From NCBI RefSeq assembly GCF_913773995.1, contig NZ_CAJYES010000252.1:1-32118 (forward strand): 32,118 nucleotides of DNA, written 5' to 3'. The DNA comes from an uncultured Pseudacidovorax sp. (GTDB lineage Bacteria; Pseudomonadota; Gammaproteobacteria; Burkholderiales; Burkholderiaceae_C). A model generated the notes under the pieces. It saw nothing but the letters and a program-made list of their open reading frames with translations. It made no database searches and was not told the origin of the DNA. Position 1 is the stretch's first letter. Every line of letters starts with the position of its first letter. This document shows positions 11,305-26,355 of the stretch, piece by piece. Made by a program: the position numbers and the translations under genes.

Positions 11305-11762
11305 AAATTGACCAATTGATCACCGATTGTGTCATTGTGTGGAATTTGTAAAGCACGGTACCCCCACCCGCTCACCGCAAAAAGTGCACATGCTCTTTGC
11401 ATACCGTTGTTCGAAAACGTCATTTTGGCCCTCGTGCGCAGGGAAATGGCCTCCGGACCCGCCGATTCGCCCCGCTCTCCCTTGACACGCGCAGGCGAGG
11501 CGCACGAAAGCATTACAGCCCACGGGCCGCCGCAGCGGGCCGATCGCGGTCAGGCCCCGCTGGGAAAGCGCGGCGACCCTCCGGTCAAGTTCACAATAGT
11601 TCACGTTTCAGCGATCTTTCAACGGGATGGTCGGCGTCCCGTCTGACACGCTGGATACCATAGTTAACCAAAGTTAACATTCAGCGCCAATCCAACCATG
11701 GCGCCCCCAGTGGGACGCCGTCCGACACGGGGGCCGGCTCGGTGGGCGCTTTCCGCTTCCCG
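11305..11762. promoter_or_regulatory. Divergent regulatory region between the minor pilin operon and the exopolysaccharide operon
   Basis: These 458 bases contain no convincing gene; short open frames here lack recognisable domains. The region is more AT-rich than its surroundings near 11300-11350 (towards pilE) and near 11585-11690 (towards wecB), as expected for promoters. Two spaced pairs of GTT[C/A]AC hexamers are the most regular elements. No confident -35/-10 pair was found. Confidence 0.5.
11589..11678. promoter_or_regulatory. Two pairs of GTT[C/A]AC half-sites upstream of wecB
   Basis: GTTCAC occurs at 11589-11594 and 11599-11604. GTTAAC occurs at 11663-11668 and 11673-11678. Within each pair the copies are ten bases apart, and the pairs are 74 bases apart, about seven helical turns. 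GTTAAC is self-complementary, so the second pair also forms a palindrome. The regularity suggests a cooperative regulator binding one DNA face before the exopolysaccharide operon. The regulator is unknown. Confidence 0.4.
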
Positions 11763-12938
11763 ATGCACGTCCTTTCGATCTTTGGTACCCGCCCCGAGGC
11801 CATCAAGATGGCCCCCCTGGTGTCCGCCCTGGCGGCTGAACCGCAACTGCGCAGCACCCTGTGCATCACGGGGCAGCACCGCGAGATGCTGGCCCAGGCC
11901 ATGGGCCTGTTCGGCCTCAAGGCCGACCGCGACCTGGACGTGATGCAGCCCGACCAGACGCTCAACCAGCTCAGCGCCCGCCTGACCACGCGGATGGACG
12001 ACGTGCTGCGCGAGCTGCGTCCCGACTGCGTGCTGGTGCATGGCGACACGACCACGGCCGCGGCCTGCGCGCTGGCCGCCTTCCATCTGCGCATTCCGGT
12101 CGGCCATGTGGAGGCGGGCCTGCGCAGCGGCGACATGCGGGCGCCCTTTCCCGAGGAGATGAACCGCCGCGTCGTCGACGTGATGAGCGAATGGATGTTC
12201 GCGCCCACGCCCGCCGCCCGCGACGCCCTTCGGCGTGAACACCTGGGCGGACGCGCCTGGGTGACCGGCAACACCGTGATCGACGCGCTGGCCGCGACGC
12301 TGGCCCGGCTGGATGCCGACCCGGTGCTTGCGGCCACGGTGGGCGGCCGCTACGGGTGGGTGGCGCCCGACCGGCGGCTGGTGCTGGTCACCGGCCACCG
12401 GCGCGAGAACTTCGGCGAGGGCTTTCGCAACATCTGCGCCGCCCTGCGCGAGCTGGCCCTGCGCGACGACGTGGAGATCGTCTATCCGGTGCACATGAAT
12501 CCCAATGTGCGCGGCGTCGTCATGCAGCTGCTGCACGGCCTGCCCAACGTCCACCTGATCGAGCCCGTGGGCTACCTGGACTTCATCTGGCTGATGCGCC
12601 GCGCGCACCTGATCCTCACCGACTCCGGCGGCGTGCAGGAAGAAGCACCCCACCTCGGCAAGCCGGTGCTGGTGATGCGCGATGTGACCGAGCGCCCGGA
12701 GGCCGTGGCCGCCGGCACCGCACACCTGGTGGGCACGGCGCCCGAACGCATCCTGCGCGCCGCGCGCCGCCTGCTGGACGACCCCGACGCGTACGCCGAG
12801 ATCCGCCGCCGCGGCAACCCCTACGGCGATGGCCATGCCTGCCGCCGCATCGTCGATGCGCTGTGCGGCCGCCCCGTGGCCGAGTTCGCGCCCCCGCCCC
12901 TCCAACCCGCTTCCGTTCCGAGCCTGGACTTCGCATGA
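11763..12938 (+). CDS. wecB: UDP-N-acetylglucosamine 2-epimerase (non-hydrolysing), WecB
   Basis: WecB interconverts UDP-GlcNAc and UDP-ManNAc in the cytoplasm. The 391-residue protein starts MHVLSIFGTRPEAIKMAPL, and the family residues are at expected places: Asp95 (HGDTTT), Glu117 (GHVEAGLRS), Glu131 (FPEEMNRR) and His212 (TGHRRENFGEG). The nucleotide-binding LTDSGGVQEEAP is also present. ATG 11763 is chosen over the upstream GTG 11742 because it reproduces the usual WecB N-terminus; no good ribosome binding site is seen. No UDP-ManNAc dehydrogenase (WecC) follows, which points to ManNAc itself as the product used. The stop overlaps the next ATG. First gene of the exopolysaccharide operon. 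Confidence 0.95.
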   Translation: MHVLSIFGTRPEAIKMAPLVSALAAEPQLRSTLCITGQHREMLAQAMGLFGLKADRDLDVMQPDQTLNQLSARLTTRMDDVLRELRPDCVLVHGDTTTAAACALAAFHLRIPVGHVEAGLRSGDMRAPFPEEMNRRVVDVMSEWMFAPTPAARDALRREHLGGRAWVTGNTVIDALAATLARLDADPVLAATVGGRYGWVAPDRRLVLVTGHRRENFGEGFRNICAALRELALRDDVEIVYPVHMNPNVRGVVMQLLHGLPNVHLIEPVGYLDFIWLMRRAHLILTDSGGVQEEAPHLGKPVLVMRDVTERPEAVAAGTAHLVGTAPERILRAARRLLDDPDAYAEIRRRGNPYGDGHACRRIVDALCGRPVAEFAPPPLQPASVPSLDFA

Positions 12939-15130
12939 GACTGCCCCACCGCCTTCTTCGCCCCCTACCGCTGCTCCTCGGCGCCAGCCTGCTCGCGCCG
13001 GTGGCCGCGCTGGCCAGCCCCGCGGGCGACGCCCTGCAGCGCCTGCAGGGCGAGACCTGGGTCACGCGCACGTTCACGTTGGCCGACCTCGGCATCACCC
13101 GCACCGTGCTGCTCACCGGCTTCGATGCCAAGCAGGAGTTCTACCTGCCGGTGCCGCGCAACGTCGCCATCGCCGACGCGGGCATCGACTTCCGTGGGCG
13201 CTACTACAAGCCCGAGGAGGCCCGCACCTCGATCACGCTCACCGTCAACGGCCGGCCGAGCTACGCGACGCGCGTGGACACGGCCGAGGGCGATGCCACC
13301 CAGACGCTGAAGGTGGACACCCGCACCATCGTCGACGGCTTCCTGCGTCTGGGCGTCAGCTGGATCAACAACTCGCCCGAGCGCATCTGCGCCTACGAGC
13401 GCCCGTCAGGCAACGTGCTGGCGGTCGAACCCGACACCCGCTTCACCTACCGCTTCACCAGCGGCGCCCTGGTCAATCTGGCAGATGCCTGGGTGGCACT
13501 GCCTGCCAAGCCCACGATGATCGTGGCCGGCAAGCGCCTTTCCAAGACCGCCTACGACAGCGCCTGGCGCATGGGCCTGGCCATGGAACAGGCCGGCCGC
13601 CAGATCAACGTGCGCAGCTTCCCCGCGGTGGGCGACAGCATCGACACCCAGGGCTGGCAGATTCCGCCCGCACTGGCCGGACTGCCCGCTTTCTCGGGCC
13701 TGGCCGCCGGCGAGCCGCGCCACCAGATCCGCGATGCCGCCGAGGTGGGCGCGCTGATGGTGCTGGGCTCCGGCGCCGCCACGGGCGACCTGCTCGTGAT
13801 GGACGCCCCGCTGCGCCAGCAGATGAATGCCGCCCTCGACGCGCTGGCCGCGCAGCTCAATGGCGATGCCGACGCCGCACGGGCCCTGTCCGAGTGGCGC
13901 GGCCGCCAGACGGCCCTGGCCGCCGACGGCATGCCCTCGCACATGGTGCGCCTGGCCACGTTGGGCGCGCGGCCCGTGATCGTGCTGGCCGAGGACGCCG
14001 GCGCGCAGGCCGCCGGTGCCTTCGCCGATGCCTGGCGCAACGTGCTGGTGGGCCGCAATGCCGTGATCGACAAGGCCGACCAGGCCGAGGCCGGCAGCCG
14101 CACCATCATCCACCCGACGCAATGGGGCGGCACCAACCCCAACTTCGACGTGCTCGCCAAGGGTGACTGGACCGTCACCATGCCGCTGGCCGCGCTGTCG
14201 GCCGACGGCCGCCTGCCCACCGACATCGCCGTCGACCTGGCCGTGTCGCCCAGCGCCGGCCGCTCCGCGCCGGTCGCCACGATCTACTGGAACGACACGC
14301 TCCTGGGCGCACGCCGGCTCAATGCCGACGGCCATCCCGAGCGCATCGACGCCCGCGTGCCCAGCTACGTGCTGGGCCTGAACAACGTGCTGCGAGTGGC
14401 CATCCAGCGCCAGCCCTACTACGACGGCTGCAACGAGGCGCCCCAGCCCTACCCGGTCCAGGTGCTGCGCACCACCGCCCTGCGCACCGGCGACGCCACG
14501 CCCGACGGCACCTTCGTCGGCCTGCTGCCGCTGATGGCCTACCACCCCCAGGTGGCCGTGCCCGAGTCCTACCTGGCCGATGCCGTCGCCACGCTGCCGC
14601 GCCTCGTGCGCATTGCCGCCGCTGCCGGCGTGAGCCCGGTGCGCGCCGAATTGGTGGTGCAGGGCCAGGGCGCCTTCAACCCCGCCCGCCCCTTCCTGGC
14701 GCTGCAGGTGCCGGTCGACGGGGCCAACGCCCGTGTATCGGTCAAGGACGGCCATCTACGCATCAACGGCAAGCAGTCGCCCTGGCTGGACGTGGGCGGC
14801 CTGGCCCAGGCCAGCGCCATCGAAGTGGCCAGCAGCCATGGCCAGTACGGCCTGGTCTACCAGGTGCTGGGCACGCAGCCGGCCCTGGGCAAGCCCTTCG
14901 TGCTGAACCGCGGCGACCTGGCCGTGCTGGGCGATGAAGGCCCGGTGGCCTGGTCCGACGGCAGCACCGCCGCCAACAGCGACGCTGCGCCGGAGAGCGC
15001 CGGCTTCCTGGCCCAGTGGCAGCGCCACCTGTCGTGGGGCGTGCCGCTGATCGCCTTCGCGCTCTTGCTGCTTCTGCTGCTCTTCGTCATCGCCCACCGC
15101 CTGAAGCGCCGCCATGACCGGAACAAGTGA
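12935..15130 (+). CDS. BcsB-like periplasmic polysaccharide-synthase partner
   Basis: The 731-residue protein has a signal peptide (about 1-28, ending LAS), a long periplasmic body and a single C-terminal membrane helix (WGVPLIAFALLLLLLLFVIA) with a basic tail. This is the BcsB layout. The N-terminal jelly-roll signature is visible: FTLADLGITRTVLLTGFD, EFYLPVPRNVAIADAGIDF and SITLTVNGRPSYATRV. BcsB proteins stay attached to the synthase and guide the nascent glucan across the periplasm. No BcsA with PilZ is present, so the partner is most likely the NfrB-like glycosyltransferase downstream, and the polymer need not be cellulose. It overlaps wecB by four bases (ATGA). The following 198-base gap is the only large break in the operon. 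Confidence 0.82.
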   Translation: MRLPHRLLRPLPLLLGASLLAPVAALASPAGDALQRLQGETWVTRTFTLADLGITRTVLLTGFDAKQEFYLPVPRNVAIADAGIDFRGRYYKPEEARTSITLTVNGRPSYATRVDTAEGDATQTLKVDTRTIVDGFLRLGVSWINNSPERICAYERPSGNVLAVEPDTRFTYRFTSGALVNLADAWVALPAKPTMIVAGKRLSKTAYDSAWRMGLAMEQAGRQINVRSFPAVGDSIDTQGWQIPPALAGLPAFSGLAAGEPRHQIRDAAEVGALMVLGSGAATGDLLVMDAPLRQQMNAALDALAAQLNGDADAARALSEWRGRQTALAADGMPSHMVRLATLGARPVIVLAEDAGAQAAGAFADAWRNVLVGRNAVIDKADQAEAGSRTIIHPTQWGGTNPNFDVLAKGDWTVTMPLAALSADGRLPTDIAVDLAVSPSAGRSAPVATIYWNDTLLGARRLNADGHPERIDARVPSYVLGLNNVLRVAIQRQPYYDGCNEAPQPYPVQVLRTTALRTGDATPDGTFVGLLPLMAYHPQVAVPESYLADAVATLPRLVRIAAAAGVSPVRAELVVQGQGAFNPARPFLALQVPVDGANARVSVKDGHLRINGKQSPWLDVGGLAQASAIEVASSHGQYGLVYQVLGTQPALGKPFVLNRGDLAVLGDEGPVAWSDGSTAANSDAAPESAGFLAQWQRHLSWGVPLIAFALLLLLLLFVIAHRLKRRHDRNK

Positions 15131-15328
15131 CCCCCAGGCTGCGCGCTGCGCGCTCCGCTCCCCCCCTGAAGGGGGCGCACCCGGCGGCCTGGCAAAGCCA
15201 GTTCCGCGGGTGCCCGCGCGTGGCCTGCTCCGCGGCCCCTTCTTTTGCAAGAGCGCCCGGTCCCGCGGCGGCTGGCACGGGATGGCGCTGACGTCGGCCA
15301 GGGTCGGGCGCTGAGGCGCTTTCCAAGC
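15131..15328 (+). repeat. GC-rich intergenic repeat-like element with hairpins
   Basis: This 198-base stretch separates two genes of an otherwise overlapping operon. It contains CCCCC-TGAA-GGGGG (15162-15175), CTGGC-AAA-GCCAG (15189-15201) and a long Cys/Gly-rich non-coding run ending in CCCCTTCTTTTGCAAG. From memory it resembles an element found between many Comamonadaceae genes. Only this copy is seen in the window, so repetition is not shown here. It could attenuate or stabilise the operon transcript. Confidence 0.5.
15162..15175 (+). terminator. Hairpin just after the BcsB-like gene (attenuator candidate)
   Basis: CCCCC pairs with GGGGG around a TGAA tetraloop, 31 bases after the bcsB-like stop. 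No T-run follows, so it is not a canonical intrinsic terminator. It may reduce read-through into the synthase gene or protect the upstream mRNA end. Confidence 0.3.
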
Positions 15329-17023
15329 ATGGATTCGCTTTACTGGCCGTACCTGCTGGCCGACTACTACCACCTGCTGGAGGTGATGACGGCGACCGTG
15401 GCGGTGCTGGTGCTGATCTCCGGGCTGGACGACCTGTTCATCGACCTGTGGTACTGGGTGCGCGAGGCCTGGCGGGCGCTCACGGTGCGGCGGCGCTATA
15501 CGCCGCTGTCGGTGGCGCAGTTGCGCGAGCGCGAGGAGCAGCCCATGGCCATCATGGTGCCGGCCTGGCACGAGTACGACGTGATCGCGCCGATGCTGGC
15601 CAACATGGTCTCGACGCTGGAGTACCGCGACTACGTCATCTTCGTGGGCACCTACCGCAACGACGCCCGCACCATCGAGGAGGTGGAGCGCATGCGCCGG
15701 CGCTACCGCCACCTGGTGCGCGTGGAAGTGCCCCACGACGGCCCCACCTGCAAGGCCGACTGCCTCAACTGGGTGGTGCAGGCCGTGTTCAAGTACGAGA
15801 AGTCCACCGGCCAGCGCTTTGCGGGCGTGGTGCTGCACGACAGCGAGGACGTGCTCCACCCGCTGGAGCTCAAGTACTACAACTACCTGCTGCCGCGCAT
15901 GGATTTCATCCAGCTGCCGGTGACCTCGCTGGAGCGCCACTGGTTCGAGCTGGTGGCCGGCACCTACATGGACGAGTTCGCCGAATGGCACAGCAAGGAC
16001 CTGGTGGTGCGCGAGAGTCTGGCCCATGTGGTGCCTTCGGCCGGCGTGGGCACCTGCTTCTCGCTGCGAGCGCTGCATACGCTGGCCGAGGCGACGCAGA
16101 ACCAGCCCTTCAACGTCGACAGCCTGACCGAGGACTACGACATCGGCAACCGCCTGGGCCAGCTCGGCATGAAGCAGATCTTCGGCCGCTTCGAGGTGGA
16201 CTACGTGACGCGCCGCTCCAAATGGTTCGGCCTGGGCGGCGAGAAGGTGCACGCGCTGCGCATGCCGCTGGGCGTGCGCGAGTTCTTCCCCGACACCTTC
16301 CGCACCGCCTACCGGCAGAAGGCCCGCTGGACTTTGGGCATCGGCTTCCAGGGCTGGGAGCAGGTGGGCTGGCGCGGCTCGCTCGCCGCCAAGTACCTGC
16401 TCTACCGTGACCGCAAGGGGCTGGTGACGTCCTTCGTCGCCATGTTGGGCTATCTGCTGGTGCTCAACTTCATGCTGTTCTTCGTGGCCTACCAGCTCGG
16501 CTGGTTCGACGTGCACTACCCGTCCCTGCTGCAGCCCGGCAGCTGGGTGGTGACGGTGATGGCCATCAACGGCGTGCTGCTGCTGTGGCGCGTGCTGCAG
16601 CGGGCCTGGTTCGTGACCCGCATGTACGGCTGGGAGCACGGGCTGCTGTCGGTGCCACGCATGGTGGTGGGCAACTTCATCAACGCCGCCGCCGCCGCCC
16701 GGGCCTGGCGCCTGTTCCTGTCGCACAAGCTGCTGGGCACCCGGCTGGTGTGGGACAAGACCATGCACGACTTCCCCTCCGACGACCACCTGGTGCAGAC
16801 GCGTCAGCGGCTGGGCGAGCTGCTGCTGTCCTGGCGCGCCATCGACCCCGAGCACCTGGAGGCGGCCCTGCGCCTGCAGGCGCAGTCGCGTCGCCCCCTG
16901 GGCGCGATCCTGGTGGACAACGGCTGGCTGGACGACGCCACCCTCGACGAAGCCATCGCCTTCCAGGAAAACGACTCGCAGTTCGTCGGCCTCAAAACCC
17001 ATACCCAACACGCAACCGCATGA
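15329..17023 (+). CDS. nfrB: NfrB-like family 2 glycosyltransferase with C-terminal MshEN c-di-GMP receptor domain
   Basis: The 564-residue inner-membrane protein is the predicted polymer synthase. It has an N-terminal membrane helix (about 19-40), then a GT2 domain: nucleotide-sugar site PAWHEYDVI (79-87), metal site HDSED (170-174), catalytic TEDYD (267-271 region) and QKARW (330-334), the QxxRW acceptor motif of processive synthases. Further helices lie at about 366-392 and 405-425. The C-terminus has two 24-residue MshEN motifs at 494-517 and 523-546 with a five-residue linker (RLG and PLG openings, terminal Gln in both), the arrangement that binds c-di-GMP. E. coli NfrB has the same plan but is longer (about 745). 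ATG 15329 gives the natural membrane start. The stop overlaps nfrA (ATGA). Confidence 0.92.
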   Translation: MDSLYWPYLLADYYHLLEVMTATVAVLVLISGLDDLFIDLWYWVREAWRALTVRRRYTPLSVAQLREREEQPMAIMVPAWHEYDVIAPMLANMVSTLEYRDYVIFVGTYRNDARTIEEVERMRRRYRHLVRVEVPHDGPTCKADCLNWVVQAVFKYEKSTGQRFAGVVLHDSEDVLHPLELKYYNYLLPRMDFIQLPVTSLERHWFELVAGTYMDEFAEWHSKDLVVRESLAHVVPSAGVGTCFSLRALHTLAEATQNQPFNVDSLTEDYDIGNRLGQLGMKQIFGRFEVDYVTRRSKWFGLGGEKVHALRMPLGVREFFPDTFRTAYRQKARWTLGIGFQGWEQVGWRGSLAAKYLLYRDRKGLVTSFVAMLGYLLVLNFMLFFVAYQLGWFDVHYPSLLQPGSWVVTVMAINGVLLLWRVLQRAWFVTRMYGWEHGLLSVPRMVVGNFINAAAAARAWRLFLSHKLLGTRLVWDKTMHDFPSDDHLVQTRQRLGELLLSWRAIDPEHLEAALRLQAQSRRPLGAILVDNGWLDDATLDEAIAFQENDSQFVGLKTHTQHATA

Positions 17024-20000
17024 AACCGCTGCACCGCAAAGCCACGCTGGCGATGGCCCTGGCTGCGGCCTGGCCGGTGATGCCCGCCCTCGCCTCGGTC
17101 GCGCCCCTCGCTGCCGAGGCGCCGCCCGGACAGGACGCCGGCATCCAGTTGCGCATCGCCGCACGCCTGACGCTGCCCGAGACGGCCACGGCCGCTGGCC
17201 AGCCCGCCCCGTCACCCGCACCCTTGCCCGACACGCCGCAGGACGCGCTGCAGATGGCGGAGCTGCCCGGTTGGCGGCGTCGCCTGTCCGGCGACAGCCT
17301 GGCCATGGTGCGCATGGCCCGCATCGAGCCGCGCGGCATGCCCTCCTCTGCCGACGCCGACCCGCTGATGCAGATCGGCGGTGCGCCGCCGCCGGCACCA
17401 CCGCAGGGCCCCTTCCCGCCCGGTGGCCCCGACGTGGTGCTGGGCGCCGGTGCGCGCCGGCTGCCGACGATCCCCACGCGGCTGGACCTGGCGCAGTTGC
17501 AGGAGCCGCCCTCGCCCGACGCGCCCGCGCAGTTCGTGCGTCCCGGCGAGCGCCGCGCGGCGCCGGCCGCGCGTGCGTCCGGCCCCCGCACCGGCCGCGC
17601 GAGCCGCGGCGGCAACCGCCTTCGCGGCGCCGCCTGGCGCCTGGCCGCGCAGGGCTACCGTGCCTACAACCGGGGCCGCTACGACGTGGCCCTGCAGCGG
17701 GCCGATGCCGCGCTCCGGCTGCGGCCGGACGTCGCGCGCCTGCAGCTGCTGCGCGTCTATTCGCTGCAGAAGCTCGGCCGGCTGGACGAAGCCGCGCGCA
17801 GCGCCGCCCAGGCCATCGCGCAGGGCCACGGCAGCCCGGAGCTGCAGGCCGCGCTGGTCAACCTGCGCCCCGCCGCCCCCACGGCCGCCGACGGCACGCC
17901 CACCACCGAGGCCTACCGCCGAGGCTTTCCCATCGCCACCGAGGCGTACACGCTCTACAACGACGGCAAGTACGCCGAGGCCGCCAAGCTGGCCGAACAG
18001 GCGGTGCGCATCGACCCCAGCCAGGGTCCGTGGACGCTGCTGTGGCTCAACGCGCTGGAGAACCAGCAGCGCTATGACGACGTCGTGCAGTACGGCAACG
18101 TGGCCATGGCCCTGGGCGCACCCAACAAGGACGCGATCATGGCCCGCATGCGCCTCGCCCGGCAGCAGATCGCCAACCTGCATGCCCAGGCCGCCTACGC
18201 CGCCCTCAACAAGGGCCGCAACCGCGAGGCGCTGGCCGAGGCCCGCGACGCGGTGCGCATCGCGCCCGACGTGGCCAGCCACCGCATGCTGCTCATCGGC
18301 GTGCTGCAGGCCATGCGCGACGACGCCGCGGCCGAGAAGGCCGCCACCGAAGCCCTGTCGGCCGACGACGAGAACACCGGCGTGCAGCTGCTGCGCGCCT
18401 ACCTGCGCCAGTCGCTGGGCGACACCGCCGCCGCGCAGAAAGACATCGACGATGTGCTGGCCCTGGACTGGATCACCGACGACCAGCGCCGCAATGCGCG
18501 GCTGATCGGCGCCGATCTGGCGCTGGCAGCCGACCAGCCCGATCGCGCCCGCGCCCTGGTCGCACCGCTGCCCGCGGACGACGCCCAGGCGCAGGCCCGC
18601 CTCAAGCGCGCCAGCCGCTTCGCCGGCTGGGGCCCCGGTGCCGACAACAGCCTGACTGCCCTGGCGCCGATCCAGCTGTGCCGCGACACGCCCTACGGCA
18701 CCGTCTGCGAACTGGCGCCCTGGGACGATCCGGGCACCGACAGCCCCGCCAGTCGCGCCTATGCCGCCTACGGCCGGCAGGAGTACCCCAAAGCCATCGC
18801 CCTGGCCCGCCGCGCCGTGGCCGAGCAGCCCGACAGCGAAGCCAACCAGACCCTGCTGACCACCACGCTGGCCTCGGGCACGGCGCAGGAGCAGCAGGAG
18901 GCGATGGACCGCCTCAACACCGCGCTGGCCGCCAAGCCCCAGGACGCCGGCCTGCTGCGCCAGCGCGCCTACCTCTACACCAACCGCAAGCAGTACGACC
19001 TGGCGCTGCAGGACTTCGTGGCCGCGCGCAGCACCGGCGAGGCCCCCGAGACCAACGTGCTGGACGAGGCCTATGCCACCGCCGCCGTCGGCAACCGCCC
19101 GGCCGCCGCGGCCATGCTGCGCCAGGCCATCGACGATGCCGACGCCGGCAAGATCACGCTCGACAAGCAGCAGCGCTTCGACACCCGCAGCGCGGTGGCC
19201 AACTTCTCGCGCGAATGGGGCGTGAACGCCTCAGTGGGCTACCGCGGCGCGCGCTCGCCCTCCAACGCGCTGGCCGGCCAGCCGATCTCGGTGCCGGGCA
19301 ATGCCACGTTCAGCACCGTGGAAGCGTACTGGCGGCCGCCGGAGTTCCTCAACAGCAGCAACCGCACCTTCGAGGTGTACGGCCGCCTCTCCAACACGCT
19401 GCACAGCGGCAACACGGTCACGGGCGCGCAGGTGGTGGACAACCCCTGCGGCGGCACCACCACCGTGAGCCAGGGCACCTTCAACAGCGCCTCGGGCTGG
19501 CCGTCGACCGTGGGCGCCATCGGCGCACGCTTCACGCCCGATGCCGGCACCAACCTCACCTTCGGCATCGAGCGGCAGTTCCTGCTGGGCACGGCCACAC
19601 GCTCGGGCGCCATCAACGCCGGTCCGGCCTCGGTGCGCTGCGCCCTCAACAGCCAGGCCGCCACCATCGACTACCAGGGCGGCAAGGCCTCGGGCGGCTG
19701 GCAGGCCTACATGCTCTACGGCTTCTACGACGGCACTGCGCTGCGGCTGGACAAGTCCAGCTGGTACACGATGGAAGGCTATGTGCAGGCCGGCTACACG
19801 CTGCTGGACCATGGCGTGGACTACACCGAGCGCGACGCATCGGGCAACACGCTCGCCACCGGCGACGGGCGCCTGCGCCGGGGCCAGGGCTTCGCCGCCG
19901 GCGAGGTGCGCGTGGGCCGCAGCTTCCTGACCTCGTACAGCGACCGTCTGGTGGTGTTCCCGCACGTCACGCTGGCGGCCGACTGGTACTCGACCCAGGC

Positions 20001-20232
20001 GCGCGTCAGCGGAGTGCCGCTGGCCGGCGCCAGCAGCTTCGCGCTCGCGGGCAACGGCAGCAGCTGGTCCGCCGGCGCCGGCATCGGCGTCAACCTGCGC
20101 TACTGGCTCAACGAGGACCGCTACAACGCCCAGCGCTCGCATGCCGATCTGAGCGTGCAATACCGCGCCCGCCTGGGCGGCGATGCCGACCGGGCCAAGG
20201 GCGTGTTCATGACGCTGTCCTATTCCTACTGA
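17020..20232 (+). CDS. nfrA: NfrA-like TPR/beta-barrel outer-membrane export protein
   Basis: The 1070-residue protein is predicted to carry the polymer across the outer membrane. It has a signal peptide (about 1-24, PALA-SV), a Pro/Ala-rich low-complexity stretch (about 60-200), and TPR-type helical repeats from about 204 to 700 (for example AYNRGRYDVALQRADAALRL and LYNDGKYAEAAKLAEQAVRI). From about 730 a beta-rich domain resembles the NfrA C-terminal barrel: VNASVGYRGARSP, FEVYGRLSNTL, YMLYGFYDG, GYVQAGYTLLDHG. It ends in SYSY, an aromatic C-terminus as usual for outer-membrane barrels. E. coli NfrA, the phage N4 receptor component, is of similar size and plan. BcsC has the same logic but a different barrel. 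It overlaps nfrB by four bases. Confidence 0.88.
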   Translation: MKPLHRKATLAMALAAAWPVMPALASVAPLAAEAPPGQDAGIQLRIAARLTLPETATAAGQPAPSPAPLPDTPQDALQMAELPGWRRRLSGDSLAMVRMARIEPRGMPSSADADPLMQIGGAPPPAPPQGPFPPGGPDVVLGAGARRLPTIPTRLDLAQLQEPPSPDAPAQFVRPGERRAAPAARASGPRTGRASRGGNRLRGAAWRLAAQGYRAYNRGRYDVALQRADAALRLRPDVARLQLLRVYSLQKLGRLDEAARSAAQAIAQGHGSPELQAALVNLRPAAPTAADGTPTTEAYRRGFPIATEAYTLYNDGKYAEAAKLAEQAVRIDPSQGPWTLLWLNALENQQRYDDVVQYGNVAMALGAPNKDAIMARMRLARQQIANLHAQAAYAALNKGRNREALAEARDAVRIAPDVASHRMLLIGVLQAMRDDAAAEKAATEALSADDENTGVQLLRAYLRQSLGDTAAAQKDIDDVLALDWITDDQRRNARLIGADLALAADQPDRARALVAPLPADDAQAQARLKRASRFAGWGPGADNSLTALAPIQLCRDTPYGTVCELAPWDDPGTDSPASRAYAAYGRQEYPKAIALARRAVAEQPDSEANQTLLTTTLASGTAQEQQEAMDRLNTALAAKPQDAGLLRQRAYLYTNRKQYDLALQDFVAARSTGEAPETNVLDEAYATAAVGNRPAAAAMLRQAIDDADAGKITLDKQQRFDTRSAVANFSREWGVNASVGYRGARSPSNALAGQPISVPGNATFSTVEAYWRPPEFLNSSNRTFEVYGRLSNTLHSGNTVTGAQVVDNPCGGTTTVSQGTFNSASGWPSTVGAIGARFTPDAGTNLTFGIERQFLLGTATRSGAINAGPASVRCALNSQAATIDYQGGKASGGWQAYMLYGFYDGTALRLDKSSWYTMEGYVQAGYTLLDHGVDYTERDASGNTLATGDGRLRRGQGFAAGEVRVGRSFLTSYSDRLVVFPHVTLAADWYSTQARVSGVPLAGASSFALAGNGSSWSAGAGIGVNLRYWLNEDRYNAQRSHADLSVQYRARLGGDADRAKGVFMTLSYSY

Positions 20233-20288
20233 ACCCACCGACCCTGCCGATGCGCGGCTCCGGCTGCCGCGCGCGCAGACGATCCACC

Positions 20289-20299
20289 CGAGGGGATTG
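20289..20299 (+). promoter_or_regulatory. Ribosome binding site of the first AlgJ/AlgX-like gene
   Basis: A purine run (GAGGGG) ends at 20295, ten bases before ATG 20306, after a 73-base gap following nfrA. It favours ATG 20306 over the in-frame TTG at 20297, which would sit directly on it. Confidence 0.5.
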
Positions 20300-20305
20300 C
20301 ATCCA

Positions 20306-21292
20306 ATGAACGACGACCGCACCGACCGCGGCATGCGCCGCCGCCACCTGCTGGGCCTGCCGATGGGTCTGGCCCTGGCCGGGCTGGCCCGCGCCCAGGC
20401 CGACACCCTGGCCTTCGTGGGACAGGACAACTTCATCTTCGCGGCCTGGGACAGCCTGGCCGCGCCCGACTGGAAAGCCATCGACGCCACCGTCGCGCGC
20501 GTGGCGCAGGTGAGCCAGCTGCTGGCGGCCAAGGGCGTGGCGCTGGTGGTGCCGGTGCTGCCCGACAAGATGCGCATCTATGCGGAGAAGCTGCCCGCGG
20601 ACAAGCCCATGGCGCCCGAGATGCGCCAGCGTTATGCCGGCATCCTCTCGCGCCTGCAGACGGCCGGCGTGGCCACCTTCGACGACGACAAGCTGCTGAT
20701 GGCCCTCAAGGCCGCCGGCCAGCCGGTCTACTACCGCACCGACCAGCACTGGGCGCAGCCCGCGGCCGACGCCACGGCCCAGGCCACGGCCGACCTGATC
20801 CGCCAGAAAGTGCCCAACTTGTCTGGGCAACCGGGCACCGGCATGACGCTGGGGCCGCTGATCAACGAGCGCCGCTACGGCGATCTGGCGGACCGCTTCC
20901 TCTCGCCCGAGCAGCGCCGGGCCGTGGGCCGCGAGATCTATTCCGTGCGACGCGCGGGCGATGGCGAAAGTCTGCTGGCCGATGCCCCTGCGCCCGTGCA
21001 CGTCACCGGCAACAGCATGGTGCAGCCCTACTTCGGCTTTCCGCAGAAGCTTTCGAACGTGCTCGACCGGCCGGTGTCGGTCAACTGGAAGCCGGGCGAC
21101 GTCGGTTTCTGGCGCGTGCTGATCGAGTACGTGGAGTCCAACGGCTTCAAGCAACAGAAGCCGCAGGCGCTGGTGTGGCAGCTGTTCGAACCCAACTTCC
21201 ACCTGGGTCCGGACGCCCGCGGGCTGTGGGACAGCGCGTCGGTGATGTCGGCCGAGGAGTGGCAGCGCCGCATCCAGGCCGCGTTGGCGTGA
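20306..21292 (+). CDS. AlgJ/AlgX-like SGNH O-acyltransferase (periplasmic)
   Basis: The 328-residue protein has a twin-arginine-like signal (MRRRHLLGLPMGLALAGLA, cleavage near ARAQA at 28-32). This suggests export in a folded state. SGNH motifs of the AlgJ/AlgX family are complete: a PDKMRIY block (86-92), the Asp-x-His pair in RTDQHW (Asp146, His148) and the nucleophile in TGNSM (Ser237). In alginate such proteins receive acetyl from the MBOAT AlgI and place it on the polymer. The start is ATG 20306, supported by a ribosome binding site. The stop overlaps the next gene (GTGA). AlgJ and AlgX orthology cannot be told apart by eye. Confidence 0.85.
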   Translation: MNDDRTDRGMRRRHLLGLPMGLALAGLARAQADTLAFVGQDNFIFAAWDSLAAPDWKAIDATVARVAQVSQLLAAKGVALVVPVLPDKMRIYAEKLPADKPMAPEMRQRYAGILSRLQTAGVATFDDDKLLMALKAAGQPVYYRTDQHWAQPAADATAQATADLIRQKVPNLSGQPGTGMTLGPLINERRYGDLADRFLSPEQRRAVGREIYSVRRAGDGESLLADAPAPVHVTGNSMVQPYFGFPQKLSNVLDRPVSVNWKPGDVGFWRVLIEYVESNGFKQQKPQALVWQLFEPNFHLGPDARGLWDSASVMSAEEWQRRIQAALA

Positions 21293-22395
21293 GCCAGGCC
21301 GCGCCCCCGGCGCAGAACACGGCCGTGCCGCCCGCCCGGCGGCATGCACCCTTCGCCTTCGTCATCGGCCTGCTACTGGTCGCCGGCCTCGCCTGGGGCC
21401 TGTGGCGGCTGGCGGCGGCGGATCGCAGCGCCTGGCAGCAGGCCGGCGCCGAAGCCGCCATGAACCGCACCCTGGGTGCCCTGCCCGGCCAGGGCGACTG
21501 GACACGCTGGGGCGCGGGGCTGCGCTGGCGTCTGATGGGCGACCTGGGCCCGCAGGTGGCCCAGGGCTGCCCCGGTTGGCTCTTCTACCGCGACGGGCTG
21601 CGCCCCCAGGCGGGCGAGGCGGCTGCCGCTGCGGCCTACGAGCGGCGCGTGGCCCTGATGCGGCATTGGGCGCAGGTGCTGCGCGCGCGCGGTGTGCAGC
21701 TCGTGGTGGCCACGGTGCCTGACAAGTCGCGCATCGAGGCCACGCACCTGTGCGGCCTGCCGGTGTCCGCCGCCATGCAGGCCCGGCTGGACGACTGGCA
21801 ACGGCGCCTGGCCGAGGCCGGCGTGCCGCAGGTCGACCTGCGCCCGGCGCTGGCGGCCCTGCCGCAGGCCTACTACCGCACCGACGTCCACATGGCCCCG
21901 GCCGGCGCCGAGGCGGCGGCCGACGCCATCGGGCGCACCGCGTTGCCGATGCTGGGCGGCCCCGGCACCCAGCGCTTCGACGACCAGCGCGGCACGGCAC
22001 CCGAGCCGCGCATGGGCGACCTGATCGTGCTGGCCGGCCTCGACACCCTGCCCGAAGGATGGCGCCCGGCGCTGGAGCGGTTCACGCCCGAGCGCATCGT
22101 GCCGGTGGCCAGCGGCGGCCTGCTGGACGCGGGGCCGTCGGCCGAGGTGCTGCTGGTGGGCGACTCCAACGGACTGCGCAGTGAATTCCCGGGACGCCTG
22201 GGCCGCCAGCTCGGACGCGAGGTCTGGACCCTCAGCCACGACGGCGGCTACTTCTCCGGCGCCATGCTGGCGGCCCTGGCCCAAAAGGAGCGCTGGCCCA
22301 CCAGCCTCAAGCTCGTGGTGTGGACCTTCTCCGAGCTCTCGCTGTCGCTCCCCCTGAGTGCCGACGAGGCGCGTGCCGCCGCCGCCCTGCCCTGA
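21289..22395 (+). CDS. AlgJ/AlgX-like SGNH protein, membrane-anchored
   Basis: The 368-residue protein starts at GTG 21289 overlapping the previous stop. A cytoplasmic Pro-rich stretch of about 20 residues is followed by a membrane helix (FAFVIGLLLVAGLAWGLW, about 22-40) and a periplasmic SGNH domain. Family motifs are GWLFYRDGL (96-104), VPDKSRIE (143-150), Asp199-x-His201 in RTDVHM and Ser293 in VGDSNG. All three catalytic residues are present, so it is probably active. Like AlgJ it is tied to the inner membrane, while its neighbour looks soluble as AlgX is. A two-step transfer (MBOAT to anchored SGNH to soluble SGNH to polymer) is a reasonable inference. Confidence 0.85.
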   Translation: MSQAAPPAQNTAVPPARRHAPFAFVIGLLLVAGLAWGLWRLAAADRSAWQQAGAEAAMNRTLGALPGQGDWTRWGAGLRWRLMGDLGPQVAQGCPGWLFYRDGLRPQAGEAAAAAAYERRVALMRHWAQVLRARGVQLVVATVPDKSRIEATHLCGLPVSAAMQARLDDWQRRLAEAGVPQVDLRPALAALPQAYYRTDVHMAPAGAEAAADAIGRTALPMLGGPGTQRFDDQRGTAPEPRMGDLIVLAGLDTLPEGWRPALERFTPERIVPVASGGLLDAGPSAEVLLVGDSNGLRSEFPGRLGRQLGREVWTLSHDGGYFSGAMLAALAQKERWPTSLKLVVWTFSELSLSLPLSADEARAAAALP

Positions 22396-22400
22396 CGCGC

Positions 22401-23984
22401 ATGCTGTTCAACTCGTACCTCTTCCTGTTCCTCTTCCTGCCGGTGGCGCTGGGTGGCTACTACGCCCTGGCTGCGGCCGGCAGGCGCTGGGCGGCGCTGT
22501 GGCTGTGCCTGACCTCCTTCGTCTTCTACGGCTGGTGGAACCCGCGCTTCGTCGCGCTGCTGGCCGGCTCGATCCTGGTCAACCATGTGTTCAGCCGGCT
22601 CATCATCGGCAGTGCTGCCGACAAGCGCCGGCAGTGGTGGATCACGGCCGTGGGCGTGGGCTGCAACCTGGCGCTGCTCTTCTACTACAAGTACTTCACC
22701 ACGCTGCTGGGGGCGCTGGCGGACCTGGGGCTGCGTGCGGGGCCGGTGCAGGACATCCTGCTGCCCCTGGGCATCTCCTTCTTCACCTTCACGCAGATCG
22801 GCTACCTGCTGGACTGCCAGGCTGGCGCGGTGAAGAAGGCGAGCCTGCTCAACCACACGCTGTTCGTCACCTTCTTCCCGCACCTGATCGCGGGCCCGGT
22901 GCTGCATCACAAGGAAATGATGCCGCAGTTCGACCAGGACCAGACCTACCGCTTCCGTGCCGAGAACCTGTCGGTGGGCGGCACGCTCTTCGTCATCGGA
23001 CTGGCCAAGAAGGTGCTGCTGGCCGACAGCATCGCGCCCTATGCCGACGCCGGCTTCGCGGCGCCCGGCGACCCGCAGTTCTGGGGCGCCTGGGGCGCCG
23101 CGCTGGCCTACACGCTGCAGCTGTACTTCGACTTCTCGGGCTATTCGGACATGGCGCTGGGCCTGGCCAAGATGTTCGGCGTGCGCTTTCCGCTGAACTT
23201 CAACTCGCCCTTCAAGGCGGCGAGCATCATCGACTACTGGGCGCGCTGGCACATGACGCTGACGCGCTACCTCACCACCTACCTGTACTACCCGATGGCC
23301 ATGAAGGTATCGCGCTGGCGCAGCCGCCGCGGCCTGCCGGTGGGCGCCGCCGGCAGCCGCACGCCGGCCGGCTTCGCGCTGATGATCGGCTGGCCCACGC
23401 TCTACACCATGGGCCTGGCGGGCGTGTGGCATGGCGCGGGCCTGCAGTTCTTCATCTACGGGCTGCTGCATGGCAGCTACCTGTGCCTCAACCACGCCTG
23501 GCGCATCGCCCTGGCGCCGCGGGTCGCTCCGCAGGGCACGCGCGGCAGGCGGGTGTGGCTCTTGGCCTGCGTGGCGCTCACCTTCGCGGCCGTGACCGTC
23601 GCCCATGTGTTCTTCCGCGCCAACGATGTGCCCGACGCTCTGGCGCTGCTGCAGGGCATGGCGGGGGGACGCGGCGTCGAATCGCTGGGCGGTGCCCAGG
23701 CCGCCGCTCTGCTGGCGCAGGGCTGGACCGGCTGGCAGACGCTGGTCGGCCGCCACATGCAGGCGCTGCTGATCGTGGCGCTGCTGGCCGTCGCCTGGGG
23801 CGCACCCAACGCCTACCAGATCCTCGGTCGCTTCTCGCCCGCCCTGGGCCGCGTGCAGGAAGGCCGGCCTGCGTGGCTGCGCTGGCAGCCCAGCGTCGCC
23901 TGGCTGGTCGTCGTGCTGCTCCTGTTGCTGGTCAGTGTCATGAACCTGCATCGCGAAGCGCGGTTCCTCTACTTTCAATTCTGA
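22401..23984 (+). CDS. algI: AlgI-like MBOAT O-acyltransferase
   Basis: The 527-residue polytopic protein belongs to the MBOAT family that passes an acyl group across the inner membrane to periplasmic polymers (AlgI for alginate, DltB for teichoic acid). It starts MLFNSYLFLFLFLPV, the typical AlgI opening. Signature parts are FFTFTQIGYLLD (127-138), YFDFSGYSDMA (242-252), the RWHMTL histidine (His284) and the invariant histidine in GVWHGAGLQF (His344). The ATG follows the previous stop by five bases, and its stop overlaps the algF start (TGATG). The usual donor for AlgI is acetyl of unknown immediate source. The nearby Dlt-like module raises another possible donor. Confidence 0.93.
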   Translation: MLFNSYLFLFLFLPVALGGYYALAAAGRRWAALWLCLTSFVFYGWWNPRFVALLAGSILVNHVFSRLIIGSAADKRRQWWITAVGVGCNLALLFYYKYFTTLLGALADLGLRAGPVQDILLPLGISFFTFTQIGYLLDCQAGAVKKASLLNHTLFVTFFPHLIAGPVLHHKEMMPQFDQDQTYRFRAENLSVGGTLFVIGLAKKVLLADSIAPYADAGFAAPGDPQFWGAWGAALAYTLQLYFDFSGYSDMALGLAKMFGVRFPLNFNSPFKAASIIDYWARWHMTLTRYLTTYLYYPMAMKVSRWRSRRGLPVGAAGSRTPAGFALMIGWPTLYTMGLAGVWHGAGLQFFIYGLLHGSYLCLNHAWRIALAPRVAPQGTRGRRVWLLACVALTFAAVTVAHVFFRANDVPDALALLQGMAGGRGVESLGGAQAAALLAQGWTGWQTLVGRHMQALLIVALLAVAWGAPNAYQILGRFSPALGRVQEGRPAWLRWQPSVAWLVVVLLLLLVSVMNLHREARFLYFQF

Positions 23985-24670
23985 TGAAGCCTCTCGCCTT
24001 CCTCCTTCGCGCGCTGGTGCTGCCTGCCGCCTACGCCTTCGTGACACTGCCCGCCCTGGCCCAGGACGGCGCGCTGTCGCAGCTGTATGCCGCGCGGCCA
24101 CCGGCCGGCTCGTCCTTCGTGCGCGTGGTCAACCCTACGAGCGAGACGCTGCTGGTGCAGGTGGCCGGCGGCCCGGCCCAGCGCATCGGGCCGCAGACAC
24201 CTGCCACCAGCTACGCCATCGTGGCCGGCGGCAAGCCCTTCGTCGTGCAGGTGGGTGGCAAGAAGGCGGCAACGCTCGAAGTGAAGCCCGACAGCTTCGG
24301 CACCTGGGTGCTGCGGCGCGAGGGCAGTGGCCATGCCTTCACCGCCATCGACGACACGGGCGACGTGCCCGATGCGCTGAAAGCCGATCTGCGCTTCTAC
24401 AACCTGGTGCCCGGCTGCGCCAAGGCCCAGTTGCAGATCGCACCCGCCGGCACGCCCGTCGTGCGCGACGTCGGGCCGATGACGGCCGGTGCGCGCTCGG
24501 TGAATCCGGTGCAGGCCCAACTGGCGGCGGCCTGCGGCAGTGCCACGAGCGCGGCGCAGGCCCTGCCCGCGCTGCAGGCCGGCGACCACCTGAGCCTGTT
24601 CATGACCGGCACGGCCGACAAGCCGGTGCTGACGATGCAGCCGGCCCGCACCGACACCTTCAAGCGTTGA
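23984..24670 (+). CDS. algF: AlgF-like periplasmic O-acetylation protein
   Basis: The 228-residue protein has a signal peptide (about 1-26, PALAQ). The early sequence LYAARPPAGSSFVRVVNPTSETLLVQVAGG and later FYNLVPGCAKAQLQIAPAG match AlgF, a small periplasmic protein needed for alginate O-acetylation, built of two beta-sandwich domains. Two Cys residues (about 145 and 185) may form a disulfide. It is the last gene of the operon. It converges with the DltA-like gene, and their 3' ends overlap by 11 bases, leaving no room for an independent terminator between them. Confidence 0.88.
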   Translation: MKPLAFLLRALVLPAAYAFVTLPALAQDGALSQLYAARPPAGSSFVRVVNPTSETLLVQVAGGPAQRIGPQTPATSYAIVAGGKPFVVQVGGKKAATLEVKPDSFGTWVLRREGSGHAFTAIDDTGDVPDALKADLRFYNLVPGCAKAQLQIAPAGTPVVRDVGPMTAGARSVNPVQAQLAAACGSATSAAQALPALQAGDHLSLFMTGTADKPVLTMQPARTDTFKR

Positions 24671-26099
24671 GCGTCTCGTACAGCCGCGCCAGCTTGGCGC
24701 GGTCGGTCTTGTAGTTGACCGACACCGGCAACTGCGCGCAGGGCAGCAGCTCCGACGGGATCATGTAGTGCGGCAGGCGCGCGGCCAGCAGCGCCTTCCA
24801 GTCGGCGAGTTCGGCCGGCAGCGCGGGGGCGTCGCTCCCGGTCTCGACGAAGGCCACCAGCCGGGCCACCGCACCGTTGGGCCGCCTCAGGGCCACGGCC
24901 GAGGCGCCGCGGCTGCCCGGCAACGTGGCCAGGGCCGCATCCACCTCCATAAGCTCCAGCCGGTAGCCGTTGAGCTTGATCTGGTCGTCGATGCGGCCAT
25001 GGCAGAAGAGCAGGCCGTCGTCGCTCTCGGTGCCCAGGTCGCCGGTGCGAAAGCCGCGCTGGCCATCGCGGACGAACATGCGCGTGGCATTGAGGTCGGG
25101 CCGGTTGAGGTAGCCGCGCATCACGTGCGGGCCGGCGATGCACAGCTCGCCTTCGTCGCAGTACACGGCACTGTCCCGCTTGGCGCGGCCGATGGGCAGC
25201 GGCGTGTCGGTGGCCAGCATGGCGTCTTCCACCACCAGCAGCGTGGTCGCGACCGTGGCCTCGGTCGGGCCGTAGGTGTTGAGCAGCGGCACATCGGGAA
25301 AGCGCTTGCGCAGTTGCCGACACAGCGGCACGGGCAGCGGCTCGCCGCAGAAGACGAAGGTGCGTAGCTGCGGCAGCGCGGCCTGCGTGAAGCCCGGGTT
25401 GACCAGCTGCTGCTGCGCGAAGGACGGCGTGGACACCCAGGTCGTCACGCCATGCTCGGCCATCAGCGCCGCCACCTTCAGCGGCGAGGCGGCGTCCTGC
25501 CGGTCCAGCATGAGGATGGTGCCGCCCAGCGCCAGCGTGCCGAACACGTCGTAGAGCGACACGTCGAAGCTGAACACCGTCTGGTCGAGGAAGACCGGGC
25601 GTTCGCCCAGGCCGAAGTCCAGCCGCATCCAGTCGATCAGGCCCTGCACGCTCTCGCGGCCGATCTGCACGCCCTTGGGCTGGCCGGTGGTGCCCGAGGT
25701 GAACATCACGTAGCACAGGTCCTTCTCGGCCAGCGGCGTGCCGGTGCCGTCGCGCAGCACCTCGAAGCGGCCCTGGGCTGCGTCGTAGAGCAGGTGGGCA
25801 TCGAGGATGTCGCAGATGCTGGCCAGCCGCTCGGCCGGATAGACGGCATCCACCGGCACGAAGGGCGCGCGCAGCATCAGCGCACCGGTCAGCGCCACCA
25901 TGAAGGCGGCCTCCTTGTGGCCGCGGATGACGATGGGCATGTCCGCGCCCAGGCCCAGGCGGCGGGCCTCGTTGCACCAGGCCTCGGCCTCGCGTTGCAG
26001 TTGCGCCCAGTCCAGGTGGCGGTCGCGGGCCACGATGGCGGGCCGCTCGCCCCCGGCCTCGGTCTGGACGAAGCGGCCGCTGTCGTAGTCGAAATGCAT
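24660..26099 (-). CDS. DltA-like D-alanine (amino acid)-carrier protein ligase
   Basis: This 479-residue adenylating enzyme should activate an amino or other acid with ATP and load it on the adjacent carrier protein. The core motifs are present: P-loop FTSGTTGQPKGV (133-144), FSFDVSLYD (176-184), STPSF (223-227), NTYGPTEATV (274-283), GRIDDQIKLNGYR (368-380) and the catalytic Lys464 in NYKTDR. The set STPSF, FCGE (250-253), NTYGPTEATV and the length are closest, from memory, to DltA. The Cys of FCGE corresponds to a residue linked to D-alanine preference in a Bacillus DltA. D-alanine is therefore plausible but unproven. It begins 16 bases after the carrier gene. Confidence 0.85.
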   Translation of the reverse strand: MHFDYDSGRFVQTEAGGERPAIVARDRHLDWAQLQREAEAWCNEARRLGLGADMPIVIRGHKEAAFMVALTGALMLRAPFVPVDAVYPAERLASICDILDAHLLYDAAQGRFEVLRDGTGTPLAEKDLCYVMFTSGTTGQPKGVQIGRESVQGLIDWMRLDFGLGERPVFLDQTVFSFDVSLYDVFGTLALGGTILMLDRQDAASPLKVAALMAEHGVTTWVSTPSFAQQQLVNPGFTQAALPQLRTFVFCGEPLPVPLCRQLRKRFPDVPLLNTYGPTEATVATTLLVVEDAMLATDTPLPIGRAKRDSAVYCDEGELCIAGPHVMRGYLNRPDLNATRMFVRDGQRGFRTGDLGTESDDGLLFCHGRIDDQIKLNGYRLELMEVDAALATLPGSRGASAVALRRPNGAVARLVAFVETGSDAPALPAELADWKALLAARLPHYMIPSELLPCAQLPVSVNYKTDRAKLARLYETLNA

Positions 26100-26115
26100 G
26101 GCCGTGGACGGACGC

Positions 26116-26355
26116 TCAGGCGGCGTTGGCGACCACGAAGTCGGTCAGTGTGCGCACCGAGTACAGATGCTCCTGCGCCTCGGTGATCGGCACCGTGCAG
26201 CCGAAGCGGCTTTCGACGGCCAGCATCAGCTCGACGGCGGCGACGGAATCGAGCAGGCCGGATTCGAGCAGGGGCACCTCCGGGTCCACCTTCTTGAGGA
26301 TGGCGGACTGGATCAGGGCGATGAGTTGTTGTTCGATCTCGGCGGGCGTGGTCAT
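26116..26355 (-). CDS. DltC-sized acyl/peptidyl carrier protein
   Basis: From ATG 26355 the protein has 79 residues, the usual size of a free-standing carrier such as DltC. The phosphopantetheine serine is in GLLDSVAAVELMLAVE (Asp-Ser pair near residues 36-37). The four-helix pattern and acidic composition fit. A GTG at 26376 would add seven residues (MPPPFPS), which look unnatural for this family. No clear ribosome binding site is seen for either. It lies between the dehydrogenase-like gene (34-base gap) and the DltA-like gene (16-base gap), so the three probably form one transcript. It is the expected acceptor of the DltA-like enzyme. Confidence 0.9.
   Translation of the reverse strand: MTTPAEIEQQLIALIQSAILKKVDPEVPLLESGLLDSVAAVELMLAVESRFGCTVPITEAQEHLYSVRTLTDFVVANAA

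Follow-up and report, generated by a model that had tools for sequence, protein, structure and literature searches.

What does an nfr-type exopolysaccharide locus attach to its polymer, and from which donor does the group come? The question is raised by a stretch of 32,118 nucleotides from an uncultured Pseudacidovorax sp. (contig NZ_CAJYES010000252.1, positions 1 to 32,118), hereafter the window, in which an eight-gene nfr operon with AlgI-type acyltransferase genes meets, end to end, a set of opposing genes for a DltA-like adenylation enzyme and a DltC-like carrier protein. We consider it rather probable that the Nfr-type polymer, activated by cyclic di-GMP (c-di-GMP), is aminoacylated, and not simply acetylated, by an AlgI/AlgX machine fed from the Dlt-like carrier. 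The gene families, their motifs, the residues of the adenylation pocket and a linkage conserved across genomes are described below; for the chemistry of the polymer, the control by c-di-GMP and the direction of transfer, we argue by analogy with homologues.

The operon and the genes that face it

The twelve genes in question are as follows (profile scores in bits).

11763-12938, plus strand: WecB/NfrC, UDP-GlcNAc 2-epimerase (TIGR00236, 468 bits, cut-off 210)
12935-15130, plus strand: BcsB-like periplasmic, membrane-anchored guide protein (PF03170 in the N-terminal quarter, 28.5 bits, cut-off 21)
15329-17023, plus strand: NfrB, GT2 synthase with a C-terminal MshE-type c-di-GMP domain (NF012033, 943 bits, cut-off 537)
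17020-20232, plus strand: NfrA, TPR and outer-membrane barrel export protein (TPR matches; NfrA_C PF13283, 77 bits over the second half of the model)
20297-21292, plus strand: AlgX-type SGNH acyltransferase (PF16822, 199 bits; D-x-H and GNS motifs)
21289-22395, plus strand: AlgJ/AlgX-type SGNH acyltransferase with an N-terminal hydrophobic anchor (PF16822, 213 bits; D-x-H and GDS motifs)
22401-23984, plus strand: AlgI-type MBOAT (PF03062, 67 bits; WHG histidine; C-terminal FLYFQF)
23984-24670, plus strand: AlgF-like adaptor (PF11182, 63 bits, cut-off 34)
24660-26099, minus strand: DltA-like aminoacyl-carrier-protein ligase, the adenylation enzyme (PF00501, 191 bits; pocket code DVYVVCTVAK)
26116-26355, minus strand: DltC-like acyl carrier protein with a DSV phosphopantetheine site (PF00550, 32.4 bits, cut-off 20.8)
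26390-27562, minus strand: flavoprotein of the acyl-CoA-dehydrogenase fold, here called ACAD1 (PF02771, PF00441)
27699-28667, minus strand: DUF4434 family member homologous to YbcH of E. coli; its lipoprotein-like signal was seen by eye (PF14488, 173 bits)

All eight plus-strand reading frames are open and show a strong bias at third codon positions (GC3); the gene at 20297 starts with TTG (an ATG nine bases further in is possible) and the gene at 21289 with GTG. A preliminary description of this DNA had named the families of these eight collinear genes, and both the order and the assignments agree with our profile scans, which place every one of the proteins in a named family. It had also regarded seven of the genes as tightly linked: six of the seven junctions are indeed overlaps or gaps below 80 bases, but bcsB and nfrB stand 198 bases apart. 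Its limits for the system, 11763-24670, end too early, as four further genes could be assigned on the minus strand (24660-28667), the first of which converges on algF with an overlap of 11 bases between the gene ends.

Two of the operon proteins deserve comment. The Pfam score of the BcsB-like protein is weak, yet its identity is backed by structure matches: with an AlphaFold model built from 38 sequences (mean pLDDT 82.5), the top 22 PDB matches in Foldseek were all BcsB chains or BcsB-containing cellulose synthase complexes (6yg8_D, TMt 0.59). NfrB retains the motifs of a processive glycosyltransferase, namely HDSED (D.ED), SLTED (TED) and QKARW (QxxRW), and reaches 55 bits with the MshE-related model NF053729 (cut-off 38). 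It scores 587 bits with NF008411, the NCBIfam equivalog model of NfrB, under the cut-off of 1170, and gives no match to Pfam MshEN, with which E. coli NfrB scores 52.9 bits; the first motif of its predicted MshE-type domain has R/Q-A at the place where we take the consensus residue to be glycine. No BcsA-type synthase with a PilZ domain was found in the operon, the sole synthase being NfrB, in which Pfam shows GT2 domains and no PilZ.

The DUF4434 gene ties the minus-strand set to the same system, because DUF4434 is the family of YbcH, the product of the third gene of E. coli nfrBA-ybcH (E. coli YbcH scores 235 bits with PF14488, and BLASTP of the window protein against it gives E=6e-11). Thus, the minus-strand genes are very probably part of the Nfr system too. 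DUF4434 was matched beside acyl-loading genes in 10 of 20 examined regions (L177-L180, L182, L183, L185-L188), recognized by eye only in L173-L176 and L189, and not seen in L184; within the stretches available it was matched in 19 of the 80 NfrB loci introduced below. In the window, DUF4434 is adjoined by prpB, prpF and acnD, and similar genes were seen by eye in Pseudacidovorax L180. A propionate (prp) link was considered and rejected as incidental, since other genes lie beyond DUF4434 in L177-L179.

A donor-loading pair that travels with AlgI

The window NfrB was compared with the best 80 of 430 matching stretches from a collection of 84,980 genomes, presence being scored by the best tblastn match of the window proteins and the adenylation enzyme being counted above 200 bits. 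The four nearest loci are all from Pseudacidovorax (NfrB 96-97% identical). BcsB was matched in all 80 loci, NfrA in 78 and WecB in 75, so that the hybrid appears to be the ordinary form among these loci. The co-occurrence of NfrB, BcsB and AlgI, which the preliminary description had proposed to look for, is likewise frequent: AlgI is present in 59 of the 80, with 56 loci having the lineage of the window (by which we mean at least 56% identity to the window AlgI), three having a divergent form (34-35%), and 21 being without AlgI.

It is with this AlgI lineage that the ligase and the carrier are linked. The pair accompanies it in 48 of the 56 loci, six have an FkbH-domain protein instead, and in two (L031, L041) the contig breaks off too early to tell, which gives 48 of 54 visible loci for the pair. 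In the six FkbH loci (L045, L059, L060, L062, L071 and L084), an FkbH-domain protein (TIGR01686, 314 bits, cut-off 147) and a glyoxalase-fold gene replace the ligase and carrier beside AlgI, for example at L059:16994-18895; this suggests a glyceryl-type acyl donor, and no separate carrier protein was detected there with the window carrier as query. No pair was found in the three loci with divergent AlgI, nor in the 21 AlgI-less ones, of which 16 show 9 kb or more of downstream sequence and five are cut short.

Moreover, the linkage is kept through three gene orders, which argues for a shared function. The convergent order of the window recurs in L177-L180 and L217; it is the arrangement of most loci from Comamonadaceae and Ideonella. 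Ligase and carrier are placed between algI and algF in L037, L182 and L185-L188, an order shared by those Achromobacter, Pseudomonas and Pandoraea loci in which they occur. The third order, with both genes after algI and with algF shifted upstream, is seen in L085, L088, L091, L098, L099 and L101; Paraburkholderia, Ralstonia A12 and Trinickia fusca have it.

A control set of 16 genomes with 25 AlgI-like matches, whose neighbours were scored within 1.5 kb, points the same way. Fourteen matches were nfr-linked AlgI of this lineage, 12 of them with the ligase and two with FkbH. Not one of the eight AlgI paralogues outside nfr or dra-type loci had a ligase, carrier or FkbH within that distance, and some of them adjoin AlgJ/AlgX- or AlgF-like genes. 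The rest were one Herbaspirillum nfr locus, with none of these partners, and two DltB-like genes of dra-type operons, with the ligase present. Among 250 genomes of the order, in which NfrB and the adenylation enzyme were both counted at E<=1e-100, NfrB occurred in 10, the ligase in seven and both in four, always within 8 kb of each other (4/4). Among the other ligase loci in this sample, the second copy of G200 is a dra-type operon (L222), and G280 has a DltB-DltA-DltC-DltD cassette (L221).

Since a DltA/DltC-like pair, or FkbH, travels with this AlgI lineage, the acyl donor is probably bound to a carrier protein and derived from an amino acid. The earlier label of alginate-type acylation therefore holds for the MBOAT, SGNH and AlgF families themselves and is probably too narrow for the group transferred.

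The amino acid suggested by the pocket

With the pocket region of the window ligase as query, the six best PDB sequences were all D-alanine carrier ligases (99.7-131 bits), followed by gramicidin synthase at 82; with the whole protein, the scores were 287 bits for DltA and 168 for an L-prolyl ligase, while the 305 bits of gramicidin synthase are the sum of two domains. The enzyme keeps the cysteine and the NTYGPTEATVA motif seen in DltA. In an alignment of adenylation domains, from which the L181 match and duplicate rows of L172-L180 and L182-L189 were left out, the pocket code DVYVLCTVAK was found in six other loci, from Acidovorax, Paracidovorax, Simplicispira and a Burkholderiaceae metagenome-assembled genome. 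DLYVLCTVAK, from which the window differs by two Leu-to-Val changes, is the code of the Paraburkholderia type and of the dra/dlt-type operon of Achromobacter, whose enzyme is 58% identical to that of the window; in Bordetella pertussis, dra is reported to introduce D-alanine into the outer membrane.

Against a single amino acid for all these loci stands a second nfr-linked ligase clade (Achromobacter, Pseudomonas, Pandoraea), whose code is DFFAVGSCSK in 25 of 29 rows and a close variant in the other four, so that the amino acid does not seem to be the same throughout nfr loci. Pseudomonas putida NBRC 14671 (L078), for example, has the pair with this second code together with ACAD2, a flavoprotein family treated below. 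On the strength of the pocket matches and the dra-like code, we take D-alanine to be the most likely substrate of the window ligase and would guess that the other clade uses a different amino acid.

The trio of ligase, carrier and flavoprotein also resembles PltF/PltL/PltE or PigI/PigG/PigA. A pyrrole-2-carboxylate route was nevertheless rejected, since the window ligase is nearer to DltA (pocket up to 131 bits, against 82 for a non-DltA sequence) and the flavoprotein matches the prolyl/aminoacyl carrier dehydrogenase models weakly (RedW 45 and PigA 41 bits, far below their cut-offs).

A proposed pathway and its weak points

Taken together, these genes induce us to propose the following pathway. 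WecB would supply UDP-ManNAc, and NfrB would polymerise at the inner membrane once c-di-GMP occupies its MshE-type domain; the BcsB-fold protein would guide the chain through the periplasm and NfrA would export it. The c-di-GMP-controlled ManNAc-type exopolysaccharide of the preliminary description thus finds support by analogy with E. coli Nfr. On the side of the donor, the DltA-like enzyme would activate a small amino acid (D-alanine being the likeliest) and load it onto the DltC-like carrier, where the flavoprotein may oxidise the bound aminoacyl group. The tyrosine in the FLYFQF end of AlgI would then accept the acyl group from the carrier, and AlgI would pass it through the membrane; on the far side, the two serine enzymes of the AlgX/AlgJ type, with AlgF as adaptor, would esterify the polymer with it.

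Several observations weigh against this pathway. The polymer chemistry is read here entirely from homologues. The 80 loci are those closest to the query, and the related genomes among them are not independent; six of the ten NfrB genomes in the order-level sample had no ligase at E<=1e-100. The minus-strand genes converge on the exopolysaccharide operon and DUF4434 starts near prpB, their co-transcription being only presumed. The ligase scores 357 bits with the DltA equivalog model TIGR01734 (cut-off 560), and of nine pocket positions read against B. subtilis DltA, four are changed, including Y for M. AlgI itself is equally ambiguous. With the DltB model TIGR04091 (cut-off 375) the window AlgI reaches 168 bits, and AlgI proteins without a linked carrier score alike (159 for Herbaspirillum, 175 for an FkbH-type locus), for which reason we dropped this score as proof of a carrier donor. 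The FLYFQF end, present in 57 of 59 AlgI frames (L041 is cut by the contig; the frame of L043 ends elsewhere and is without WHG), is identical in the divergent Herbaspirillum AlgI without a carrier, so the motif alone does not tell the donor. In addition, another contig of the window's genome encodes a further AlgI-type MBOAT (43% identical; G000:C63:14761-16248, L225). The carrier, for its part, stays below the cut-off of the dltC model (TIGR01688, 39.8 bits, cut-off 52).

The flavoprotein

The step assigned to ACAD1 is a tentative one. The protein occupies the same place in L177-L180 and L217, and among the 48 loci with the pair, ACAD1 was seen in 12, a second flavoprotein, ACAD2, in 25, and neither in 11, within the stretch available. 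ACAD1 and ACAD2 are 22-25% identical, which suggests that these loci recruited dehydrogenases from two families. Of 15 genomes of the genus, six have NfrB, and exactly these six have ACAD1 (Fisher p=2e-4, relatedness ignored); in 60 relatives, NfrB was found in 11 and ACAD1 relatives in eight, one of which (G026) is 39% identical and unlinked to nfr.

It is a real possibility, though one that we hold to be less probable than its opposite, that the flavoprotein is a monooxygenase (nitrososynthase or DszC-like) or inactive, and not a dehydrogenase, in which case the acyl group would be a plain amino acid. The fold search returned matches throughout the superfamily without separating dehydrogenases from monooxygenases, and the best Foldseek match is the nitrososynthase 3mxl. 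Val368 and Ser241 of ACAD1 align with what we take to be the usual and the alternative sites of the catalytic Glu of acyl-CoA dehydrogenases, and the absence of Glu at both makes ordinary dehydrogenation by ACAD1 doubtful; ACAD2, at the same presumed positions, has Gly at the usual site and Glu at the alternative one. The 11 pair loci in which no flavoprotein was seen also speak for this alternative. On the other side stand CaeB1 and ColB1, relatives of acyl-thioester dehydrogenases that act on a carrier-tethered aminoacyl group: CaeB1 is described as dehydrogenating a cysteinyl-carrier protein, the product hydrolysing to the pyruvoyl type (PMC8149447). These enzymes belong to antibiotic assembly lines, however, and the base of CaeB1 is likely Glu372, whereas Val takes the usual place of Glu in the window enzyme.

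It is tempting to go further and to see in Nfr a chassis with interchangeable donor modules (aminoacyl with or without a flavoprotein, FkbH glyceryl-like, or none), in which the flavoprotein of the window would turn carrier-bound D-alanine into a dehydroalanyl or pyruvoyl group. We regard this extended scenario as unlikely. If true, it would represent a dehydroalanyl or pyruvoyl acylation of a polysaccharide not described before, and the changing group could help to evade phages that use the glycan as a receptor.

Acetylation or a separate Dlt system

A rival explanation is plain O-acetylation from acetyl-CoA, as in alginate, with the adenylation, carrier and flavoprotein genes belonging to an unrelated neighbouring pathway (a small metabolite, or prp). 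It agrees with the scheme described in PMC12148441, in which carrier-protein donors go with DltB/DltX/DltD and acyl-CoA donors with MBOATs that have the shuttle hexapeptide fused to them and use no carrier protein. It agrees as well with the name of acetyltransferases given to this gene set by Sellner et al. and by Junkermeier and Hengge, with the convergent arrangement in the window and with the short distance from the DUF4434 start to prpB. However, in many genomes the pair is flanked by algI and algF within the nfr operon itself, and it follows AlgI in 48 of 54 visible loci, with FkbH in the other six, but none of the eight other AlgI paralogues has it within 1.5 kb; the change of genes beyond DUF4434 in L177-L179 leaves prp incidental. 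We therefore think simple acetylation improbable.

Aminoacylation by the fused-motif AlgI, by contrast, would place the locus across both schemes, as AlgI stands with a carrier-loading pair and neither DltX nor DltD was found. In the window, tblastn with the Achromobacter dra proteins recovered AlgI for DltB and otherwise nothing below E of 0.3, and no open reading frame in 11601-28800 other than AlgI ends in FxYxxF, DltX having been sought in the window only. The DltD model TIGR04092 had no match in the whole genome of the window, and its control was positive in Bacillus subtilis and Lactococcus lactis. For this reason we consider it very unlikely that the minus-strand genes form a Dlt system in its own right, of the Gram-negative dra-like kind, which adds D-alanine to another component of the envelope and simply lies beside the operon, even though the similar ligase of Achromobacter belongs to a separate, complete operon and the second MBOAT on another contig could serve such a system: the window holds no second MBOAT of its own.

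The Achromobacter operon just mentioned is an unlinked, second dra/dlt-type locus of those genomes (L170:7418-11625, L171, L222), with a carrier, DltD, DltX ending in FQYQQF, DltB and a DltA-like enzyme.

Relation to described systems

The preliminary description knew of no described system with exactly this gene set. Such sets are already in print: nfrA, nfrB and wecB were reported to cluster with homologues of BcsB and O-acetyltransferases in Achromobacter xylosoxidans (Sellner et al. 2021, PMC8669472), and an alginate-type acetyltransferase cluster was reported inside the nfr cluster of Simplicispira suum (Junkermeier and Hengge 2021, PMC8669469). These loci share with the window the nfr genes and the alginate-type acyltransferases; BcsB is named in the case of Achromobacter. 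A Simplicispira hankyongi locus (L036/L178) has the same gene order as the window. The main-text nfr-cluster sections of the two papers do not mention an adenylation enzyme, carrier, flavoprotein or FkbH, and Fig. S5 of Sellner et al. could show them. Among the matches listed from open-licence PMC, no title or abstract start links DltA, a carrier or FkbH to NfrB or an AlgI-type MBOAT. The export chassis is thus known, and the donor-loading modules were not met in this context among the literature matches listed.

Compared with the NfrBA-YbcH (NGR) glycan of E. coli, made with WecB (PMC8669469, PMC8669472), the window has the same NfrB with GT2 and MshE-type domains, NfrA, a YbcH homologue and supply by WecB; unlike E. 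coli, it has wecB and a BcsB-fold gene in the operon, together with acyl-transfer genes accompanied by a donor-loading module of their own. With the Dlt pathway (DltA, B, C, D, X) and Bordetella dra it shares a DltA-like pocket, a DltC-like carrier and an MBOAT distantly related to DltB, but instead of a detected DltX or DltD it has an AlgI-type MBOAT with fused motif, AlgX/AlgJ-type enzymes and AlgF, working with a synthase-dependent exopolysaccharide. Finally, alginate AlgIJFX and PatA/PatB resemble it in the MBOAT with an FXYXXF C-terminus, the SGNH partners and AlgF, and differ in that they are described with acyl-CoA and no carrier (PMC12148441), whereas the window has a linked carrier-loading pair.

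A fused-motif MBOAT combined with a carrier-loading pair is found in several beta- and gammaproteobacterial genera. If our interpretation is correct, annotations of alginate-type acetylation in such loci would be wrong, and biofilm matrices would gain positive charge from aminoacylated exopolysaccharides; the donor modules would also offer a direct handle on the decoration of the Nfr glycan, which is a phage receptor in E. coli.

Variant loci and other observations

Some nfr loci carry less. In L056 (Achromobacter xylosoxidans B_1), wecB-bcsB-nfrB-nfrA and DUF4434 were found with no acylation genes matched, unlike the published A. xylosoxidans cluster, which indicates that the acylation module varies within Achromobacter. 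In the nfr locus of Pseudomonas aegrilactucae (L075:14404-16071), algX1 is followed directly by algF, and algX2, algI, the carrier and the ligase were not found, as if algX2-algI-carrier-ligase had gone as one block. A DUF2334 gene, from a family with possible polysaccharide deacetylase activity, lies downstream in a more distant nfr locus (L219:13982-15715; NfrB 44%).

Related cassettes also occur outside nfr loci. The DltB-DltA-DltC-DltD-like cassette of L221 (6854-10834) lies within a polysaccharide-type gene cluster. On a Klebsiella electrica plasmid (NZ_CP041250, L115, 6555-10607), a DltD-MBOAT-ligase-carrier cassette has insertion sequences on its flanks, and ligases of the same identity are present on an Enterobacter plasmid and another Klebsiella plasmid. 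In L215:7572-10019, a relative of ACAD1 (38% identical), unlinked to nfr, has a DUF1839 gene and a carrier protein as neighbours, a setting that resembles the amino acid:carrier-protein ligase clusters reported by Mocibob (2010).

Elsewhere in the window, the minus strand of 3561-11356 holds type IV pilus minor-pilin-like genes, of which PilV scores over its cut-off, and a PilY1 homologue that also has a PA14 domain.

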